Below, one piece after another: positions 32,657 through 63,049 of a stretch of DNA of 64,000 nt. Position numbers and translations under genes: made by a program. Origin of the DNA: Branchiostoma floridae (taxonomy: Eukaryota > Chordata > Leptocardii > Amphioxiformes > Branchiostomatidae); NCBI RefSeq assembly GCF_000003815.2, contig NC_049989.1:20617448-20681447 (forward strand), read 5' to 3'. Under the pieces are notes generated by a model, which saw only the letters and a list, made by a program, of their open reading frames with translations, was not told where the DNA came from and did no database searches. Position 1 is the stretch's first letter; every line of letters begins with the position of its first letter.

Positions 32657-32876
32657 ACCTTTATCTTTTTTTTTTCTTTTTATAGGAAAGAACTATTGCT
32701 GCAAGCTCTCGGGGAAGAGGTCCAATATGCCCCCATAGCGAGATATTATGTAACAGAGGCTACAACAAACTTTATCTTTTTTTCTTTTTATAGGAAAGAA
32801 CTATTGCTGCAAGCTCTCGGGGAAGAGGTCCAATATGCCCCCATAGCGAGATATTATGTAACAGAGGCTACAAGTC
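32657..32876 (+). repeat. Tandem duplication of an acceptor-like segment upstream of D
   Basis: Two copies (about 105-110 bp each) of a block with ctttttataggaaagaacta and ccccatagcgagatattatg. Unit C has one copy (24680-24775). Confidence 0.85.
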
Positions 32877-50200: not shown

Positions 50201-53200
50201 TGTAAAGGCAGGCAACAGCATTTTTTTTACATTACAATGAGAATGAACCTAAAATGTTACAAAGCAGAAGAGTCCTACCGGTAGTAGCTCAACTATTCAT
50301 TGAGCAAAACTGGTCTGACTCTGAGATCTCTTTCTCTTTGATCACAAGAAAGTTGCTCAGAAGTCTCCAGTCTTTCTCTCCAACATGTTAAACCACAAAG
50401 TTTATTGTGTGTTGTTGGAAGGATTGCAAAACTTAGACATACATACTTGAACAGTAGTAGCAAAAAGAGAAGGAGACTTACCCTCTTCGTGTGATGGCAC
50501 TCCCATAGTCAGCACCCTGGGCACAACAAAAAACAGCAAAGGTTTCTAACAATGTAGACAACTAGGTTTTATACTAGTTTCAACACCAGCAACTCCAACC
50601 GACTTAAATCTTCATTTTATGTGTTACTTTCATTACCTCAATGAGAAGCAGCCTGAGGGCCGATTTGACCTACTCACGAATAAATGAAGGTTCAAACAAG
50701 AAAAACCCTACCAGTATTTCTTGATGACTTTCCTGAGCCTGAAGAGACTGTGCAGCTGGCGTGCCATGTCGTCAGTCTTGGCCAGCAGCATGACTCCTGT
50801 GGTCTCCTTGTCCAGTCTGTGGACCAGGTACAGTCGGTCAGTCTTCAGCGCCTGTTGCAGTAAGGGGAGGGAGTCGGCTATGCTGACCCCCATTCCTGGA
50901 CCACCTGAACAACAGAAGAGTTTGTTTGTTTGTTTATTTGTCTCCTTGTCCAACATGTGAACCAGGTAAAGTCTGTCAGTCTTCAGGGCCTGCTGTAGGA
51001 TGGGGAGGGAGTCGGCTATGCTGACCCCCATTCCTGGTCCACCTGAACAACAGAAGGTTCATCTTCAAACTTTGTTTTGTTTCATTTTGTTTGTTCTGTA
51101 GTATGAACAATGTGGTACTGTTATAAAAAATTATGGTAAAAATTTGAAATACTTTAGTTGTCCTTTTTGGTTGACACTTATCTGAGTTAACTACACAAAG
51201 TTACTTAGCCAGCTGAGATGTACCATGTGTCAATAAGACATTCATTCATTCAAAACTTGATCATCAGAACTTCTCATGTGTTTCCACTTTCACTTAATTT
51301 GTTTTATTTGGCCAGTTTGGTACTATCTTATGCCATTGTAGGATCTGCTTGGAGATTAAGCATTTCATCAGACTCACCATGAACAGGAACTCCATAGGGC
51401 TTCTCTATGGCCACAATGTCACCTTCATCATACAGAAGGCTTTTCTTCAAGATACTGGCCAGTGTGTATGGAGACACGTGGGTCAGGTCTGCTACCTGGT
51501 GTTTCCATTTGTATAGGAACTTCTCTCTGGACAGGTCCAACTCACGTATGTCCTATAGAAGAGAGATAAAATATAAGATGCATCGTGATTGAGATCTAAG
51601 ACATGTTAAAAAAAGATTTTTCTCTGGATACTAGCCAAATTGTAGGAAGACACATGGGTTAGGTCTGGTAATTCCATCTGTACAGGAACTTCTCTCTGGA
51701 CAGGTCCAACTCCTGTATGTCCTATAGAAGAGAGATAAAAATAAGATGCATCTTTAGTGAGATGAAAGATCTGTTTAAGAATTAAGGCTTTTCTTCAGGA
51801 TACTGGCCAGTGTGTATGGAGACACGTGGGTCAGGTCTGCTACATGGTGTTTTCATTTGTACAGAAACTTCTCTCTGGACAGGTCCAACTCCCGTATGTC
51901 CTGAAAGAGAGTGACGACAAATATCAAGACATCTCTACAGTGAGATTTAGGACACCTTTGCCAAGGAAACTGGCCGTTGCGTAGGGAGACACAAATCAGA
52001 TCTCAGAACTGGTGTTTCTACGTAACATGTATCTGTACATGAACTTCAATCTCTATGGATAACTTCCTTGCTGTGAACAAATGATAACAAATAATATTAC
52101 GACACATCTTAAGTGAGATCAAGGAGCTTTTATCAGGAGGAGAGAGTATGGAGTTACCCGCCCGCTGTTCGCCTTTGTTTGGCCCGTTAAATCCCGCAGC
52201 GCCGGCTTTGTTTACTGCCCTGCGCGGCGCCCGTCTGATCTGATGTTCGTAGCGCCGGTTGGCGCGGTTTCTATGCTAATGAGCCACGCCATTACGTCAT
52301 AGCCCTCGAGCCAGCCCGAAGCCCGATCGGCAAGAGGCGAAGTGGGTCAGGTTTCCGACGATTCCCTTATTTGGAAAACTCGGCAGGCATGTGACTACGT
52401 CATCTTGCGGTAGAGGGCACAATGGCGGACAGTTTGATATGTTTCTCTTCGCCGTACAACAAACATGGGCCAGTTTAGGCCTATTTTCGCGGATCGAGGT
52501 CTGTTTTCTTGCGATAGAATTATGAATTTTCACATGTATTTTCAGATGGCTACTAAAAAAATATGACGTTTTTCTTCATTTAGCTGATATTTTTTCGTAA
52601 CTGTTGATGATGTGCTCGGTAAAATGGCGTGTTCACTGTTGGTCGAACCTTGCTCATTTTTGTCGAACCACCCGTGTTTTTAGAGGATACATCGGGCCTG
52701 GAATAAGGTGAAGGTAAGGCGGGAGAGCATAGTTTTCATGGTTTTCGTTACGATCGGGTTTTCGTATATAATGTCTTGAGTTCTCCAGGCATAATTTTGA
52801 ACTTTGTATTTGTATCGATTTATGAAATATATCTGTTGCATACTTAAAAAAAACTTGTTCCTGTGATCATGAGTCAGGTTTTTCACAGTCATCATTAATT
52901 GTAGGAATATTACCAGTTTTTTTCGTAGACTTTGCCTCAGACAATTTTGCCTTTAGGCTTAGCCCGTACCCGAGCGGCGGCGCTGTACGGTCGCCGTATG
53001 GCTTTGAAATTTCACCCTCAGTCAGAGAGAATATTGCCGCCGCTGTATGTATTCCGAAGTTACTCTTCTGTTCAACATCGTCGACAAAATCGCAAAAATC
53101 AGATCGCTACACACAATGTTTGTATCCCCAGGCCGCCCCACCATGAATATGACCACAAAACAAAGGGAAAACAAAAGCTTGCGTGGGTGAAATGTATGCA

Positions 53201-54525: not shown

Positions 54526-57500
54526 ATGGGCGTCTTGGAGAAAATAGCCGAGATCGAGTCCGAGGTGAGGTACCAACAGTCTTAAGAACATCTAGAATTG
54601 AACGGTTTTACTAAAACCACACACACTGCCAGCAAATATGCTATTTTTACGAAAATGTACGACGAACATATTGCATCACAGATGGAATTGGGGGGGGGGG
54701 GGTTCTAGAGTAGAGCATACATGTAGTAGAGTTCTTCGGTCAGGTAGGAGTGCTAATAACTTTTTTGACAGTACATATGTTTAAAATTGACAAATATAAA
54801 ATAACAATTCAATATGAAATTCAACATTTTTTTCAGGTTTCAAGTGTGTGTGTACATAAGTCAAAGATTGATTGATTGATGGAATCAGATGCTATTATCT
54901 TTTTTTTTCGAATTTCATGAAAATGATAGCTGAACTTGCAATAATTTATGAACTAGTACATTAGTTTAGTCGAAGTGTTTTGCTTTAGCTGTCTGGCCGT
55001 TTCCAAACAAAGCATATGCACAATTATCCGATATGGTGCACAATTATCCGATATGGTCCGAAAGTGCAAAAATTAGGTGCACAGCTCCAATTTTGGATGC
55101 ACAAAAACAAAAGTCCATGTACACCCAATATTTTTTCATGTAATGCTTCATATTAATGATGCTCGTGGTAAAAACCGATGTAGATGGCTCGGACCCAGAA
55201 GAACAAGGCGACCAGCGCCCATTTGGGTCTGCTGAAGGCTCGTCTGGCGAAGCTCCGACGGGAACTCATCGAACCAAAAGGTGGCGGCGGCGGGAAAGCA
55301 GGAGAAGGTAGATATCCCAGCTGAAAAAAAGAACTTGCAACTTAACGTGCTAGAATATTCAAGTCAGTGTTATAAATCACAGACAGTCAAACCTTTACAT
55401 TTCTATTACTGGGCAAACCCCCTTCAGAGGCATCCCCCCCAGGTGTCACGAGGTGCACGGCACTAGTGTGGCCGGTGGTGGTGCTCCAACAAAAATAATA
55501 AGTGCAAGAAAGTAATAACAAAAAGGGTGTGAGTGATGGCCACACTAGTGGTCTTTGAACATGTACATAGATCTACAAATGATCAGCATAAAGACCACTT
55601 GGCCATTGTGACCATTTTTGGATGGTCCCTTTATGTATGATATTTCCCATTGACACTAGTTAGCATAAGGAATCCTGTCTATAGTGTCCATATGGTCCTC
55701 TTGGGCAGGTTTGGATTGAGCCATGAAGCCTACTTGCTGTGGCCTGTAGAAACTCACATTATGAACAATTAAATCAAATGATAAAACAGTTCACAGTTTA
55801 ACAAAACAGACAGCACTCCTCACCTCACCTCACCGCTCCCATAGCCTCACCGGCCGTAGGGGCAGCAATGCCATCAACATAAGTTTTCCATCTTCGTCTA
55901 TCTTCGGCCAAGGTTTCTAGTTTCTAGACAGCACTAGTCAGTGATAATTATAAAGTTTGGCTTGATTGAATTATTCTTGTCTCCATGTAGGTTTTGATGT
56001 TGCCAAGACAGGAGATGCCAGGATTGGGTTTGTTGGTGAGTTCTCTCTTTTCCTGTTGGAAGAAAATTTCTTGTTACAAAAAAATTCTGTGGAAAATTTG
56101 AAATGATGAACTAAAAAAAGTTTTAAGCAAGGCAAAAGCTGTACTAACTTACTACCAAGGCAGGTTTTGTTTTCACATACAATGATTTTTCTTATTTTGA
56201 TCCTGTACTGAAGAAAATAATTCAATCCCTGCAGTGTTCTAGAAAAGTCTGTGTGAATGTTTTAATTCAGGTTTCCCCTCTGTGGGTAAGTCGACCCTCC
56301 TGAGTAACCTGTGTGAATGTTTCAGGTTTCCCCTCCGTGGGTAAGTCGACCCTCCTGAGTAACCTGTGTGAATGTTTCAGGTTTCCCCTCCGTGGGTAAG
56401 TCGACCCTCCTGAGTAACCTGGCTGTGTGAATGTTTCAGGTTTCCCCTCGGTGGGAAAGTCGACCCTCCTGAGTAACCTGGCTGTGTGAATGTTTCAGGT
56501 TTCCCCTCCGTGGGTAAGTCGACCCTCCTGAGTAACCTGGCTGTGTGAATGTTTCAGGTTTCCCCTCCGTGGGTAAGTCGACCCTCCTGAGTAATCTGGC
56601 AGGTGTGTACTCCGAGGTGGCTGCTTATGAGTTCACCACCCTCACTGAGTAACCTGTGTGAATGTTTCAGGTTTCCCCTCCGTGGGTAAGTCGACCCTCC
56701 TGAGTAACCTGGCTGTGTGAATGTTTCAGGTTTCCCCTCCGTGGGTAAGTCGACCCTCCTGAGTAACCTGTGTGAATGTTTCAGGTTTCCCCTCCGTGGG
56801 TAAGTCGACCCTCCTGAGTAACCTGTGTGAATGTTTCAGGTTTCCCCTCCGTGGGTAAGTCGACCCTCCTGAGTAACCTGGCTGTGTGAATGTTTCAGGT
56901 TTCCCCTCCGTGGGTAAGTCGACCCTCCTGAGTAACCTGTGTGAATGTTTCAGGTTTCCCCTCCGTGGGTAAGTCGACCCTCCTGAGTAACCTGGCAGGT
57001 GTGTACTCTGAGGTGGCTGCTTATGAGTTCACCACCCTCACCACCGTACCCGGGGTCATCAAGTACAAGGGTGCAAAAGTTCAGGTAAGGTCATCATAAA
57101 GTTCAGGTTAGGTCACAATACTGTTTATGCAGTTCTCAGAGATTTAATTTCTTGGGGGCAGGAGTGTTCATGGTGGTTTTAAGTAGTGCCATATGCTGAA
57201 GTCACGTACTGTAATGGAAAAATGTTTTGCAGTGGTTTTGAGTTTGCGGTGAAGTGGCCTTTGCCAAAACTGCAAACATAAAACCACTGCAAACATTTCT
57301 TCATTTACAGTTTTAACTTAAAGCTTAAAAGTTCAGGTAAGGACACAAGTTGGTGATCGATGTACATTACGTAGTTTAACATGTAATGTCAGGGCAAGAA
57401 TTGTTTTCTGTTAAATTCAAGTTTAACTTTTAGAACTATTAAATTTTGTTGGCTAAAACTGTACAAACATATGGAAAGGACCGTGGAATTGTTCATGTCA

Positions 57501-60500
57501 ACTGGTTGTTAGGGCCATTGGTTGTTAGGAAATACATGTAGGTGACATCCCACTGTATTTGTTTTTGCACAGTTGCTGGATCTTCCAGGTATTATAGAAG
57601 GAGCAAAGGATGGAAAAGGCAGAGGGAAGCAAGTTATTGCAGGTTTGTCCAGTTTATTTACTGTCATCTTTACTACTATTTGTTGCTGTAAACAGCATTT
57701 GTTATTCTTATTAATTATGTATACTGTAGAATTGAGGGGAAAACTGGTATACAGGCAGGCTTTTAGCAAGGTATGCGTCAACGTGTCATCTGGACGCACT
57801 TTTCTTAGAATAACAAGAAATTTGATGCCCCTGGACGCCCTATACTAGTGAGAAAATCTTCTGACAAGCATGAAATTCTGATTGACCAGGGTTGCAACCA
57901 GGTCATCTGTGGTCAAAGTCTTCTACTGTGACATCTGTAACAGTATTTTTGCCTCTTGGGATACCTTAGAATGCACTGTTTTAACTTAAAACCATGAAAA
58001 ACTCTGCACCATGGAAGGTGGATGCCCCCTACAATAGTCACTTACCGCGACTCACTAATGAGTTTGGACTCCCTATTATAAACTCCTAGCTAAAAGCCTG
58101 TATACAGGCTAACTGTTAAGAGTGCAACACCTATGTTCAAAATTTCCCACTGTTAGTATAAAAAATAAGTTTCAAATGCAATTTTTTCCTGTCATCTGTA
58201 GTTGCCCGTACCTGCAGTCTGATATTCATCGTGTTGGACGTTCTGAAGCCGCTCGGACACAAGAGACTCATCGAGCACGAACTGGAGGGGTTCGGAATCA
58301 GGTAAACTCAGATTTTATGTAACTGGTGTAATATACATGTATATGGCCTTGAGACTAAATGATAGTAGTACGGTCGCCTTGTATTTGTAAGGTGGTGGGT
58401 TTAAATCTTCTGCAAAGTCATACCAAAGACTTGTACAAAAAAATGGTACAAACGGCTTTCTCTGCTTAGCACTGAGCTCTTAAGTTAAAATGAGAAAACG
58501 TATGGGAGTTGAACACACATCACTTCCAGTGTACTAGCCAGGGTTTTACTAGCCCCTGCTGTAGTGGCCTGTTTGTCCCAAGGGTTATGGAAGTAGAGGT
58601 AGGCCCCTCCCTATACACCTGTTTGGGAAGGATTTAACTTACTTAATGTCAACATTTGGTGGAAAGATGGCCTAATTTGTATTGTCTTTAGATATTGCTG
58701 GTAGAGAAGCACCTTTTATGAGGGTTGCCACACATTTTTTTTCCTTCTGAGTGATTGAGACTTTCTTTCTTGGACAGGTTGAACAAAGAGCCCCCAAACA
58801 TTCACTTCCGCAAGAAGGACAAGGGAGGTATCAACTTCCAGCCCTCAGTAAGACAATTTTCCGTTTGCAACTTGTAGACATCATCATTATGTGATTGTGT
58901 AGAAAATTATGCCATTGCTTTATTAATACATTATTGACGGAACAATGGACAGTGAAGTAATCATTGTACACACTTACACACAACAAACACACCCACACAC
59001 ACACTCCTAAAATTGTAATGATACATGTACTATCTGACCCTTACCTCCCCCATGACTTCAATGAAAAGCAGCCTGCAGGCCGATTTGAGCTTCTTATGGA
59101 TAAATAAAGGTTCAAGCAAAGAAACTAGTCTGTAATTAGTAAATGCCCCCTCTCCACAGGTACCACAGTCAGAGCTGGATTCAGACCTGGTGAAACAGAT
59201 CCTGGCAGAGTACAAGATCCACAACGCTGACATCCTGGTCAGGTACGACGCTAGCGCTGATGACTTGATCGACGTCATCGAGGGAAACAGGTGGGACTTT
59301 TTATTTGTTTCTTCATTTATTTGTTTGTTTTGCTGGTGCAATGGCCTAGTGGGTAGAGTGTTCGCCTTGCATTCGGAAGGTCGTGAGTTCGATCCCGGCT
59401 GAGTCATACCAAAGACTATAAAAATGGTACATGCTGCTTTCTCTGCTTAGCACTGAGCATTCGGGAAAGAGTATGGAAGTTGAACACACACCACTACCAG
59501 TGGACTAGCCCCCTGCTGTAGTGATTGCGTTGTGTGTGGCCCAGGGCTAACGAAACAGAGATGGGCACCGCCCTATGCGCCAGAAATGGGCACTGCCCTT
59601 GGCGTGGGAAGGGTTTAACTTTTTTAACTTAACTCATTTATTTGTTTGCTTTATATTGTTTTTAGTACATGTACCGAAAGTCTTTTTGCTCCCTTTGCTG
59701 ATATCTTTGCTGATCTGTATTCTGTGAATAGTTTTATCTGGTTTGAAAATCACTGGCTGAGAAAGTTATTGTATTGATTGCCCATAAAAGGAAGGTCACT
59801 GAATCATTGACTCGACTACAATGTAGCATTTGGTTCTGTACATACATCCATGCAACATTACTTGTATTGTTTGAAAAAAAAAGGAAAAATGTAGCATGCA
59901 TATGTGTGAAAATTTTTCTGTTTTACCTTCTTCTAGGGTCTACATTCCCTGCATTTTTCTGCTCAACAAAATTGACCAGATCTCCATTGAAGTAAGTATT
60001 GTAGACTTACAAATAAAGATTTCTATATTATTCTTTGGTTATAGTAGACAATATATTACTGTGACTGTTGATAGTTGATACCACTACAATTCTAGAGATG
60101 CTGTAAGCTGTACCATGTCATTCAATTAAATGGTTGCTACATGTATGTTGCATGTAGCAGAGGATGTAATATGTCGTACCTTGTACAGTTGTTGTGCAGT
60201 TAAGTTATTGATAAACATCTCAATAACCATTTCCCCATCAGGAGCTGGACATCATCTATAAAATCCCCCACTGTGTGCCCATCTCTGCTCACCACAAGTG
60301 GAACTTTGACGACTTACTGGAGAAAATGTGGGAGTATCTCGACCTGGTCAGAATGTAAGCCACTCAACACCTCTGTTTTATCTTGGCATGTCCCAGACTA
60401 ATAGTTTTTCATAAATTTGAAGAGGGGGAAGTTATATTGTTTTTGGCTTGTCCATTTTTGACTTCAGGTCTGTCTATGTTTCATTATGTGCTTGTGTGGT

Positions 60501-63049
60501 TTGCCATTACTGATTTCAATGCTTTTGGGGCTATTTCTTAAAATAAACGCCTTCAAACTTCATTTCATCTTTACGTCTTAACTTGCTGACTTGCATGTGC
60601 ATGGTGTTTCCAGCAATTCATTTAATCACAGCAGGGAGTAAAGTGCTTACCAACAAGCTTTTGATGAATTTCATTATACTACTCAAATTGAATAAGCCTA
60701 TGTCAGCTTGTGTATAGAAATCAGGGCTATCTCCAGGGTTTTCTTTTTCCTACCCAGCTCATTGTTTGGAAGCCCATTTTCTTCATATGCATGTATAGAC
60801 CTATCATTTCAAGGATACAGTAGAAGCCGTTTAATTGCACGGCCTATTTGCCAGCGTATTTCGTGCAATTATCCAGCTGGTGCAATAATGCAAAGATATT
60901 CAGCTGGACCGCTGCAGTTAACAGAAGTGTGCATTAATCTGTTATGCAATTATGCTTCTACTGTACTAAAATACATTTTTAACATTTCATGTCATGAAGG
61001 TAAAATTTTTGGATGTCAGATTGTAGGTAAAAAGATAAGATTTTTTATATTGTCAATCACAGATAAACTTTCATTCTAATGCTTGGCCATTTGCCTTGAT
61101 TTCCAGTTACACGAAGCCGAAGGGTCAGCTTCCCGACTACGAGGCCCCGGTGGTGCTGGACCACAGGCACTCAGCCATCGAGGACTTCTGCAACAAGCTC
61201 CACAAAAGCCTCATCAAGGAGTTTAAATAGTACGTCTCTCTGTACTGTACTAAATCTCATGACTTAAAAAATCCTTGGAGCATCTTCAACATGGGAAAAA
61301 GGCATCAAATTTTTCAACAAGACTAACAGTGACTGAACTCAGTTAAACAGAGTTGTTTACCTTTGCCAAAATTAGATTTAGGGTGAGTTTGTCTGCATGT
61401 GTCTGTGTCATAGCAGCTTACTAATGGACTGCAGCGAAACTTTGATATCTTGTGTTCTGGACATACTGCCCGCAGCGGTCTTGATTTTTGAGTGGTAGAT
61501 AGCTCTTGTGGCCCTGGCAACTTTTTTTAAACTGCTGGGGCCAATGCTGTTTCAAACTTTGGACGAGAATACATGTAATTCAAGAATCTGTTGATGGATT
61601 ATTAAGATATGTATATTTTTTCTCTGTTACTTAATGGTGTCCTTATAAAGTGTCCTTGTAATGACTTACCTGCTGTGAAATCCTGTCCCTGTTCCCCAGT
61701 GCCCTTGTGTGGGGATCCTCTGTCAAACATCAACCCCAGAAAGTCGGCAAGGAGCATATTCTGCATGACGAGGATGTCGTCCAGATTGTCAAAAGGTAAC
61801 TTTTTTGTTCTTAATCCTCACCTTGACTTTAAGTACACTGTACTTAAGACTTGAACCCTCTCCCTTCGTTCTATAACCCAATTAACAATACACATTTGGT
61901 GCTTAACAGTTACCTTAGCAGGCTTAAGGTTTATTACCTCTATGAAATATTCATGGAGGTTATAATGGCACCGTGGGGGCAGTGGGGGCCGTCGCCCCCA
62001 CAAAAAATAGGTCGTGGGGGCGTTGCCCCCACAATAAAATCAGCTGAAACACCCAAAAATCAAATTGAAACCCTTGTGAAAATTTTCACTGATGAAATTT
62101 TCATCAAATCTTGCTAGTCTACTCACTAACTGGCAAAATTTGCCGCTGAAAATGCAGGAAATGACGTTTCAGAGGGTCCAAAATTTCAAAGGACTCACGC
62201 CTTTGGCACTGGACATGGTGGGGTTGCCGGAGCGTCGTCCCCCACGACCCTTTTTACTAGTAGAAATTTCATTACCAAAGTTAGCTTTGTTTACATGCAA
62301 ATTGTTCCCCTCAAATGCAGGAAATGGCATTTGAAATGTCCTGATTTCAAAATTTCTCCAGAACTCTTTTGTGACGGCTTGCGCCTTTGGGGCTCACGAC
62401 AACGTAGTGCAAAATATGTTGGGGCGTGGGTCGTCTCCCTCAAAAATCGTTTTCACTACTATAGAAGTGTCATTAAATTCAGCTTACTCTGTCAGCAAAA
62501 TCTGTCCCTCAAAATGCAGGAAATGCCGTTTCAGAGGATTTAGATTTAAAAATTTCCCAGAACCTACCTTGCAACGGCTCGTGCCTTAACCGCTCGAATT
62601 GGTGAAAATATGTTGGGGGTGTCGCCCTCAATAAAAAGCTAAAACTATGTGTATTTTTGATGGAAATGCCATTGAAGTTAGCCTAGTCTGGCAGCAAAAT
62701 TTTCCCCTCAAAGGCAGGAAATAGCGTTTCAGAGGGTTTGGATTTTAAAGGGTTTGGACCCTAGAAGGTCACGCCTCCGGCGCGACGCCTCGGGCCTTCG
62801 GCCCTCGATTCAGTGCTATGAAAAAATTTCGCCCCCACAACTAAGAAATGGTGCCGCCGCCTCTGTATATGTTCACTAGCATTTGTGTGTGTGTCTGTCT
62901 GTGTGTGTATCTATCTTTGTGTGTGTGTCTGTTTCTGTATGTGTGCAAGTGTGTGTGTGTGTGCATGTATGTGTGCATGTGTGTCTGGATGTATTGTTTT
63001 CATACTTGGTTGATGACCAACATGTAAACTGCTGTTTTTCAGAGTCTGA
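54526..63049 (+). CDS. DRG1: DRG1: developmentally regulated GTP-binding protein 1 (13 exons, 367 aa)
   Basis: Exons: 54526-54564, 55184-55307, 55991-56035, 56954-57084, 57573-57642, 58202-58301, 58778-58847, 59160-59290, 59937-59991, 60242-60354, 61107-61229, 61700-61795, 63043-63049. They give 1104 bp including TGA with all phases consistent; 367 aa equals the vertebrate protein. N-terminal HTH region ([20 protein letters not shown]), G1 GFPSVGKST (70-78), G3 DLPG (116-119), G4 NKID (247-250), G5 SAH (270-272), and a C-terminal TGS domain. It ends ...VQIVKRV. DRG1 is a cytosolic Obg-class GTPase that associates with ribosomes and is stabilised by DFRP1/ZC3H15 (family knowledge). DRG2 is excluded by residues such as [20 protein letters not shown]. 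The exon 4 region carries an array of decoy copies (56271-56953). Poly(A) signal at 63690. Confidence 0.96.
56264..56953 (+). repeat. 11 extra tandem copies of the DRG1 exon 4 acceptor and P-loop segment
   Basis: Exon-like starts (gtttcccctcc...) lie at 56271, 56326, 56381, 56440, 56499, 56558, 56671, 56730, 56785, 56840 and 56899, with the real exon at 56954. Unit lengths are 55, 59 or once 113 bp. Ten copies have ttcag before the start preceded by tgaatgt; the first has ttaattcag. All but copy 4 (gggaaagt) contain gtgggtaagt, a consensus donor inside the P-loop codons. Copy 6 is long, running to the codons for TTLT. The 55/59 difference is the presence of ggct at the join. Confidence 0.95.
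57117..57313. repeat. MITE family 3, CpG-depleted copy in DRG1 intron 4
   Basis: Ends tactgtttatgca / aactgtaaatgaa with an interior (catggtggttttaa, tgcagtggtttt, ccactgcaaacat) that matches 35911-36125 if CG is read as TG or CA. An old, decayed relative. Confidence 0.6.
58350..58640 (+). mobile_element. SINE family 2, diverged copy in DRG1 intron 6
   Basis: Aligns with 59328-59640: gtcataccaaagact, ctttctctgcttagcactga, gttgaacacaca, ctagcccctgctgtagtg. Confidence 0.65.
59328..59640 (+). mobile_element. SINE family 2, best preserved copy (DRG1 intron 8)
   Basis: tRNA-like head with box A tggcctagtgggtagagtg and box B gagttcgatcccgg about 40 bp later. The body has ctttctctgcttagcactga and ends in a short tttaactta repeat. 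Confidence 0.75.
60818..60963. mobile_element. Pogo-like MITE, copy 3
   Basis: TA on both flanks; 5' end cagtagaagccgtttaattg, 3' end ...gcttctactg; 146 bp, in DRG1 intron 10. Confidence 0.7.
61436..61610. repeat. Dispersed repeat related to 13.38-13.55 kb
   Basis: Shares gtgttctggaca, tttcaaactttggacgagaa and gttgatggattatt with the repeat in the gene B 5' intron. In DRG1 intron 11. Confidence 0.55.
61930..62875. repeat. Four-unit tandem repeat in DRG1 intron 12
   Basis: About four diverged units of 175-200 bp, each with a core tcccctcaaa.tgcaggaaat and t.tcagaggrt, and separated by GC-rich cgtcgcccccaca segments. Outer segments ggcaccgtgggggc and atggtgccgccgcc may be the inverted ends of a larger mobile element. 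Confidence 0.65.
62885..62990. repeat. (TG)n-rich microsatellite before DRG1 exon 13
   Basis: About 100 bp of imperfect gtgtgtgtctgtgtgtgta, 50 bp upstream of the last acceptor. Confidence 0.85.

Follow-up and report, generated by a model that had tools for sequence, protein, structure and literature searches.

A high-copy minisatellite, probably of the mirage class, at the intron 3/exon 4 boundary of amphioxus DRG1

The window analysed here, a 64-kb stretch of lancelet DNA, contains the coding part of a DRG1 gene at 54526 to 63049 on the forward strand. Thirteen exons were placed by hand; joined and translated, they give a product of 367 amino acids without internal stop, and all twelve introns are bounded by GT and AG. 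The top relative of solved structure is yeast Rbg1 (4a9a, E 1.6e-157). Rbg2 is a weaker structural relative, the TGS domain of human DRG1 (2eki) is also matched, and the Pfam domains found are MMR_HSR1, MMR_HSR1_Xtn and TGS. These matches and domains bear out the identification of the gene in the first-pass annotation. Exon 4 begins within the first glycine codon of the P-loop GFPSVGKST. It is preceded by intron 3, of 918 nt, and followed by intron 4, of 488 nt.

The sequence AG/GTTTCCCCTC occurs exactly twelve times in tandem between 56270 and 56953, ahead of a single complete exon 4, and has no match on the reverse strand of the window. The acceptor G lies at 56270, 56325, 56380, 56439, 56498, 56557, 56670, 56729, 56784, 56839, 56898 and 56953. 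The eleven extra units measure, in order, 55, 55, 59, 59, 59, 113, 59, 55, 55, 59 and 55 bp, or 683 nt in total (Table 1). Exon 4 is complete in copy 12 only; copies 1–11 lack the exon end and the true donor. The exact sites thus confirm what had been claimed, namely twelve tandem copies of the acceptor and P-loop codons, of which eleven are extra and only one belongs to a complete exon. The description of the array as a minisatellite made from coding DNA was also supported.

Table 1. Positions of the main features (window coordinates, except for the CCT2-like array)
Feature	Position	Strand	Remarks
Exon 3	55991..56035	+	donor TTG/GTGAGT; frame runs on into exon 4, phase 1
Unique part of intron 3 before the array	56036..56270	+	235 nt, preceding copy 1
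Array of 11 extra units	56271..56953	+	each unit is exon 4 start plus intron 3 end with AG
Copy 4 (59 bp)	56440..56498	+	2 synonymous changes, one abolishing the GTAAGT donor
Copy 6 (113 bp)	56558..56670	+	exon 4 sequence as far as position 88/89, then TGAGTAACC of a 55-type unit
Exon 4 (copy 12, sole complete copy)	56954..57084	+	131 nt; donor CAG/GTAAGG
15-nt acceptor-to-donor segment GTTTCCCCTCCGTGG before GTAAGT	56954..56968	+	also in copies 1–3 and 5–11
CCT2-like array	L085 2251–3186, continued in L092 (G000:C19, about 6,926,091–6,927,028)		

The units vary slightly. Between two CTG triplets, the 59-bp form has four bases more than the 55-bp form, a difference expected from slippage. Copy 1 has TGTTTTAATTCAG in place of TGTTTCAG at its acceptor and keeps the longer intron end. 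Copy 6 carries two synonymous changes ahead of its join and, as it contains so much more of exon 4 than the other units, a longer copy of the exon was presumably once present there. Before the copy 6 join, five substitutions distinguish the copies from exon 4, and all five are synonymous.

A chance origin of the array is excluded by its TRF score (1072, 1094 or 1100, depending on the period) and by shuffling: the most frequent 16-mer in 56000–57400 occurs 12 times, whereas the maximum was one occurrence in 299 of 300 dinucleotide shuffles and two in the remaining one. In a search of the assembly (513,431,437 bases) that skips very common words, exon 4 DNA matched this locus only. A dispersed repeat or a second copy of DRG1 was rejected on this basis.

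The donor-like GTAAGT stands at exon position +15 in 11 of the 12 copies, copy 4 having GAAAGT, as had been annotated. With a human donor matrix, it scores 4.68, which is higher than nine of the twelve true DRG1 donors. The segment between acceptor and GTAAGT, which carries one synonymous change in copy 1, is of such a length that its inclusion would add GFPSV in frame; at the level of sequence geometry, the proposed 15-nt microexon encoding five residues therefore stands for the eleven copies with a donor. The pyrimidine content is the same in all twelve array acceptors and modest (9/17), below that of 10 of the 11 other true DRG1 acceptors. A TAAC core had been reported about 20 bases before each AG. 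It was found for 11 of the 12 array acceptors, at a distance of 19 or 23 nt upstream, and is missing from copy 1, which is preceded by unique intron; a role of this core as branch point would be a guess. Branch points with the consensus yTnAy lie 15–45 nt upstream of six of the twelve true DRG1 acceptors (exons 2, 3, 10, 11, 12 and 13). None was found at this distance from the exon 4 acceptor, and a single array acceptor has one, that of copy 7, which is preceded by the long copy 6.

Read from their acceptors to the true donor, copies 1–11 all run into in-frame stops, and the frame is open from copy 12 only. The expectation that upstream acceptors would 'usually' break the frame was wrong, as stops are also met from copies 3, 6 and 10, whose lengths keep the frame. 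A translated minisatellite was rejected because 55, 59 and 113 are not multiples of three and because of these eleven stops. Complete alternative or mutually exclusive exons were rejected because the exon end and true donor are absent from the upstream copies. A recursive splicing (ratchet) site consists of an AG directly followed by the donor consensus, AG/GTRAGT; such sites were rejected, since GTTTCC follows every acceptor of the array.

Minisatellites that span exon–intron boundaries are known in amphioxus under the name of mirages (PMC3087553, PMC3902484). The described loci are Adh3 (Canestro et al. 2002), the globins BflGb6 and BflGb9, PGBD5, troponin C and two further ones (PMC3087553, PMC3902484). 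Among them are cases in which the 3′ end of an intron and the 5′ part of the exon are duplicated in tandem, with 81–100% identity, and the copy number in a globin mirage differs between two haplotypes (PMC3087553). Somatic instability is described for Adh3 (PMC3087553, PMC3902484). As boundary-spanning minisatellites form a described amphioxus class, the DRG1 array is not a one-off. Its units span the boundary of a real gene, AG is present in 12 of 12 and the array is specific to its locus; as in the mirages, the tandem unit carries a splice signal, lies in an intron beside an intact exon and varies slightly. The array is a new, high-copy member of this class. Its eleven extra acceptor copies compare with six or three repeat units, depending on the haplotype, in BflGb6 (PMC3087553), and with 2–7 and 3–6, depending on the assembly, in PGBD5 (PMC3902484). 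Unlike the published mirages, the DRG1 unit includes the P-loop, and at 15 nt past the acceptor it has a strong donor of its own. Among the literature matches listed, judged by titles and the beginnings of abstracts, there was no report of a boundary-spanning array in DRG1, CCT2 or RPUSD4, of which DRG1 alone was queried by name. The available part of an introns review (PMC3488318) mentions neither amphioxus nor minisatellites.

Other boundary-spanning repeats were sought in the same assembly at exon-centred loci for 81 matches, comprising all 9 globin matches in the genome, 30 of 40 for PF01926, 30 of 47 for PF00270 and 12 of 60 for PF00118. Clear cases were found for four of the 81 (two globins, DRG1 and a CCT2-like gene), a rough figure and not a rate; the CCT2-like repeat adjoins an exon neighbouring the one matched, the 60 PF01926 and PF00270 loci were covered only for repeats overlapping the matched exon, many of these loci consist of one large frame with no intron close by, and weak self-matches in L020, L033, L054 and L016 as well as repeats in L012, L081, L086 and L090 were left out of the count. 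In three further GTPase genes (L034, L040 and L047), the P-loop exon that was matched is free of overlapping repeats.

The two globin cases fit published mirages by unit length and type of boundary only. At L017, a 158-bp repeat present 4.2 times over a globin exon acceptor fits BflGb6 (150–160 bp, acceptor side), and at L013 the 3′ end of a globin exon has a copy of 157 bp, which fits BflGb9 (157 bp, exon 3′ boundary). By these fits, the window most likely comes from Branchiostoma floridae. A further globin exon, at L016 1751–1947, has a donor region GGTAAGTCC followed about 116 bp downstream by what seems to be a diverged second copy. A search with PF00107 gave 25 matches, and two small loci, L078 and L079, were examined for the published Adh3 mirage. 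Both were rejected, their translations reading as other zinc dehydrogenases. A 40-bp array is present at L079, and none at L078.

The CCT2-like gene, whose exons lie at L085 and have T-complex subunit beta as best match, contains the last 51 nt of an exon with its donor in 14 copies spaced by 67 bp. As the first of these copies is the true exon end, the array, on the donor side, mirrors that of DRG1. Another CCT2-like locus, L086, lies on this contig as well (C19, about 12.48 Mb); it is array-free, and its donor is present once. Its corresponding exon encodes the same peptide as the neighbouring exon at L085, with 8 differences in 186 nt, and L086 may be a paralogue or a misplaced haplotype of L085. 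Within the window, an exon of an RPUSD4-like pseudouridine synthase (50802–51056, reverse strand) holds a two-copy duplicate of the acceptor and exon start, 138 bp or 46 codons long and in frame. Since the frame stays open across the two copies, it would be possible to read the longer exon. Elsewhere in the window, a direct repeat of 108 bp at 32669–32873 (1.9 copies, 100% identical) shows an acceptor-like TTTTTATAG and an open frame through both copies, and has no Pfam match above the curated cut-off.

The changes that distinguish the exon parts of five of these arrays from the authentic exons are mostly synonymous. In a test conceived after the DRG1 array had been seen, with five arrays, which are few, and with changes that need not be independent within one array, 37 of 47 distinct changes were synonymous where about 27% would be expected with a transition weight of 2 (P 2e-13). 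The ratios of synonymous to non-synonymous changes were 5:0 for DRG1, 5:2 for CCT2, 9:2 for the BflGb6-like, 9:3 for the BflGb9-like and 9:3 for the RPUSD4-like array. Without the two published globin arrays, 19 of 24 changes were synonymous (P 3e-7). When the exon side was allowed synonymous changes only and the copy side was neutral, the expectation rose to about 43% and the pooled P to 4e-7; for the single arrays it was 0.02 (DRG1), 0.11 (CCT2), 0.004 (BflGb6), 0.03 (BflGb9) and 0.03 (RPUSD4). A stronger transition bias gave 48% expected and P 2e-5, and with a null of 60% P was only 0.005. Restricted to intronic copies, the count was 17 of 21 (P 2e-7), or 8 of 10 (P 0.0009) without BflGb6.

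Three of the five synonymous variants of the CCT2 array (positions 9, 24 and 39), and neither of the two non-synonymous ones, correspond to the base of the array-free L086. Since all 13 extra copies differ at position 39, this change probably occurred on the exon side. The agreement of these bases is consistent with the copies exchanging with functional exons or descending from them. An explanation of the synonymous changes as recent alleles only is weakened by pS values of 0.37–0.41 in the two-copy cases, and also by the two non-synonymous changes among the seven of the CCT2 array. Between the first and second units of the BflGb6-like repeat (L017 954–1601), which are the most different, there are nine synonymous changes; the intron parts differ at 7 of 84 positions, relatively less, which is a limit of the test. 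As a whole, the copies look as if filtered by selection on live exons, via exchange, descent or occasional use.

With good confidence, the DRG1 array is regarded as an amphioxus mirage that grew by tandem duplication and is spliced out as intron, its copies exchanging with or descending from live exons. Its anatomy would be accounted for by minisatellite growth from the intron 3/exon 4 boundary: a first junction would have joined the intron segment CTGTGTGAATG to exon position about 41–43, slippage by 4 bp between the CTG triplets would have turned 59-bp into 55-bp units, and one exchange from a longer exon 4 copy may have produced the 113-bp unit. Unequal crossing-over or conversion would repeatedly renew the copies from live exons and, judging from the synonymous excess, keep their coding part nearly free of amino-acid changes.

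At the RNA level, the 683-nt array is most likely removed within intron 3, whose ends would be the exon 3 donor and the twelfth acceptor. This acceptor is probably the one used because it alone is followed by a whole exon with the true donor at the normal, and shortest, exon distance (131 nt); in copies 1–11 the exon is cut short and intron-like sequence follows. The GTAAGT at +15 would probably be ignored, a 15-nt exon being too short for ordinary exon definition. Slips of splicing would give RNA with stops, which is probably degraded, or, rarely, an isoform lengthened in frame by GFPSV. Removal as an ordinary intron would also be the default expectation from the published mirages, as the available accounts of Adh3, the globins and troponin C give no sign of disturbed splicing (PMC3087553, PMC3902484). 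Against use of the twelfth acceptor, copies 9–11 (exons of 186–300 nt) would be acceptable by exon length alone, and copy 1, at 235 nt from the exon 3 donor, is close enough (below about 250 nt) for intron definition to favour it. Constructs with duplicated 3′ splice sites were reportedly made by Reed and Maniatis in 1986. Such constructs resemble DRG1 in that nearly identical 3′ sites follow one another and those upstream adjoin part of the exon (PMC5389562); they are laboratory constructs with two sites, and DRG1 is a natural series of twelve. In support of the twelfth acceptor, two-site pre-mRNAs with a duplicated 3′ site were spliced to the distal site only, whether the proximal exon piece was 14, 55 or 205 nt long, and very inefficiently, so that truncation is not established as the cause of a copy losing the competition (PMC5389562). 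By the account of these authors, splicing is slowed or inhibited when two 3′ sites are occupied concurrently; the DRG1 array may therefore not be harmless, and a cost rising with copy number is possible. It also counts against the twelfth acceptor that competing human 3′ sites favour the upstream site, a lean described as reduced rather than reversed when both introns are long (PMC9225289).

Use of the array in RNA is considered unlikely. It would take the form of 15-nt phase 1-1 microexons, AG/GTTTCCCCTCCGTGG/GTAAGT, adding GFPSV repeats before the P-loop, or of a nonsense-decay switch lowering DRG1 output. A very short exon of 15 nt is unfavourable for exon definition, and by structural inference the insert would separate the first beta strand from the P-loop in a G domain that is very conserved. 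Such use would draw on the donor of 11 of 12 copies, strong by the human matrix, on introns of 95–668 nt that are possible between non-neighbouring units with an in-frame product, and on the five synonymous changes out of five before the copy 6 join. It has been suggested that mirage sites could act as cryptic splice sites (PMC3087553); against this stands the undisturbed splicing reported for published mirages (PMC3087553, PMC3902484).

The lancelet genome is very polymorphic, and the copy number or the entire array could have arisen in assembly, through collapse, expansion or mixing of haplotypes. One mirage of the draft genome was aberrantly assembled (PMC3087553), and copy numbers of the PGBD5 arrays disagree between two assemblies, 2 versus 7 and 3 versus 6 (PMC3902484). 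An artefact is nevertheless judged quite improbable for DRG1: the units fall into three length classes and carry five substitutions, the gene model around the array is intact and its contig 23.5 Mb long, the same assembly contains loci that fit published mirages, and re-examined Sanger and new Illumina data upheld the original sequence in PMC3902484.

Intron gain by tandem duplication is said to have occurred in the potato RdRp gene. In the corresponding Rogers model, proposed for mirages in globin genes, duplication provides a donor and an acceptor inside coding DNA, as it does in DRG1 (PMC3087553). That the array is a step of this kind, in which exon 4 would be split by a new intron running from the donor of one unit to the acceptor of a later one, is highly improbable: all signals are present (GTAAGT in 11 copies, acceptors downstream), but the array extends an existing intron, no new one is needed to read the gene, and the P-loop region would be lengthened by five residues at each gain.

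Beyond the reading of the DRG1 array as a mirage removed with its intron, a tentative extension can be put forward, which is less likely than not to hold. Mirage copies may be under purifying selection at the protein level without being routine parts of the mRNA, being exposed to it by frequent exchange with the live exon or by occasional use as acceptor, donor or microexon. On this view, the DRG1 array would act as a reservoir under selection, exchanging sequence with an essential exon, and conserved lancelet genes (DRG1, CCT2, RPUSD4 and the globins) would commonly carry mirages.

The number of competing acceptors, the mirror case of CCT2 and the synonymous excess set DRG1 apart from ordinary mirages. 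Models of how a 3′ site is chosen among equals differ, invoking proximity across the intron, proximity across the exon, or exon sequence. In the conserved gene DRG1, twelve acceptors that are nearly identical occur naturally in a row; any upstream choice, when read to the true donor, carries a stop and can be recognised by its sequence. The CCT2-like gene offers the converse, with fourteen donors and an array-free homologous locus in the same assembly. If the synonymous excess, seen in copies for which neutrality as intron DNA would be expected, were upheld in a larger set, it would mean that selection on an exon reaches non-coding repeats through exchange.

Other tandem repeats occur in the window. 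Arrays with units of 72, 81 and 117–120 bp lie at 5.0–7.2, 15.7–15.9, 33.5–35.2 and 43.1–44.7 kb and, going by their TRF consensus, appear to belong to a row of leucine-rich-repeat genes.
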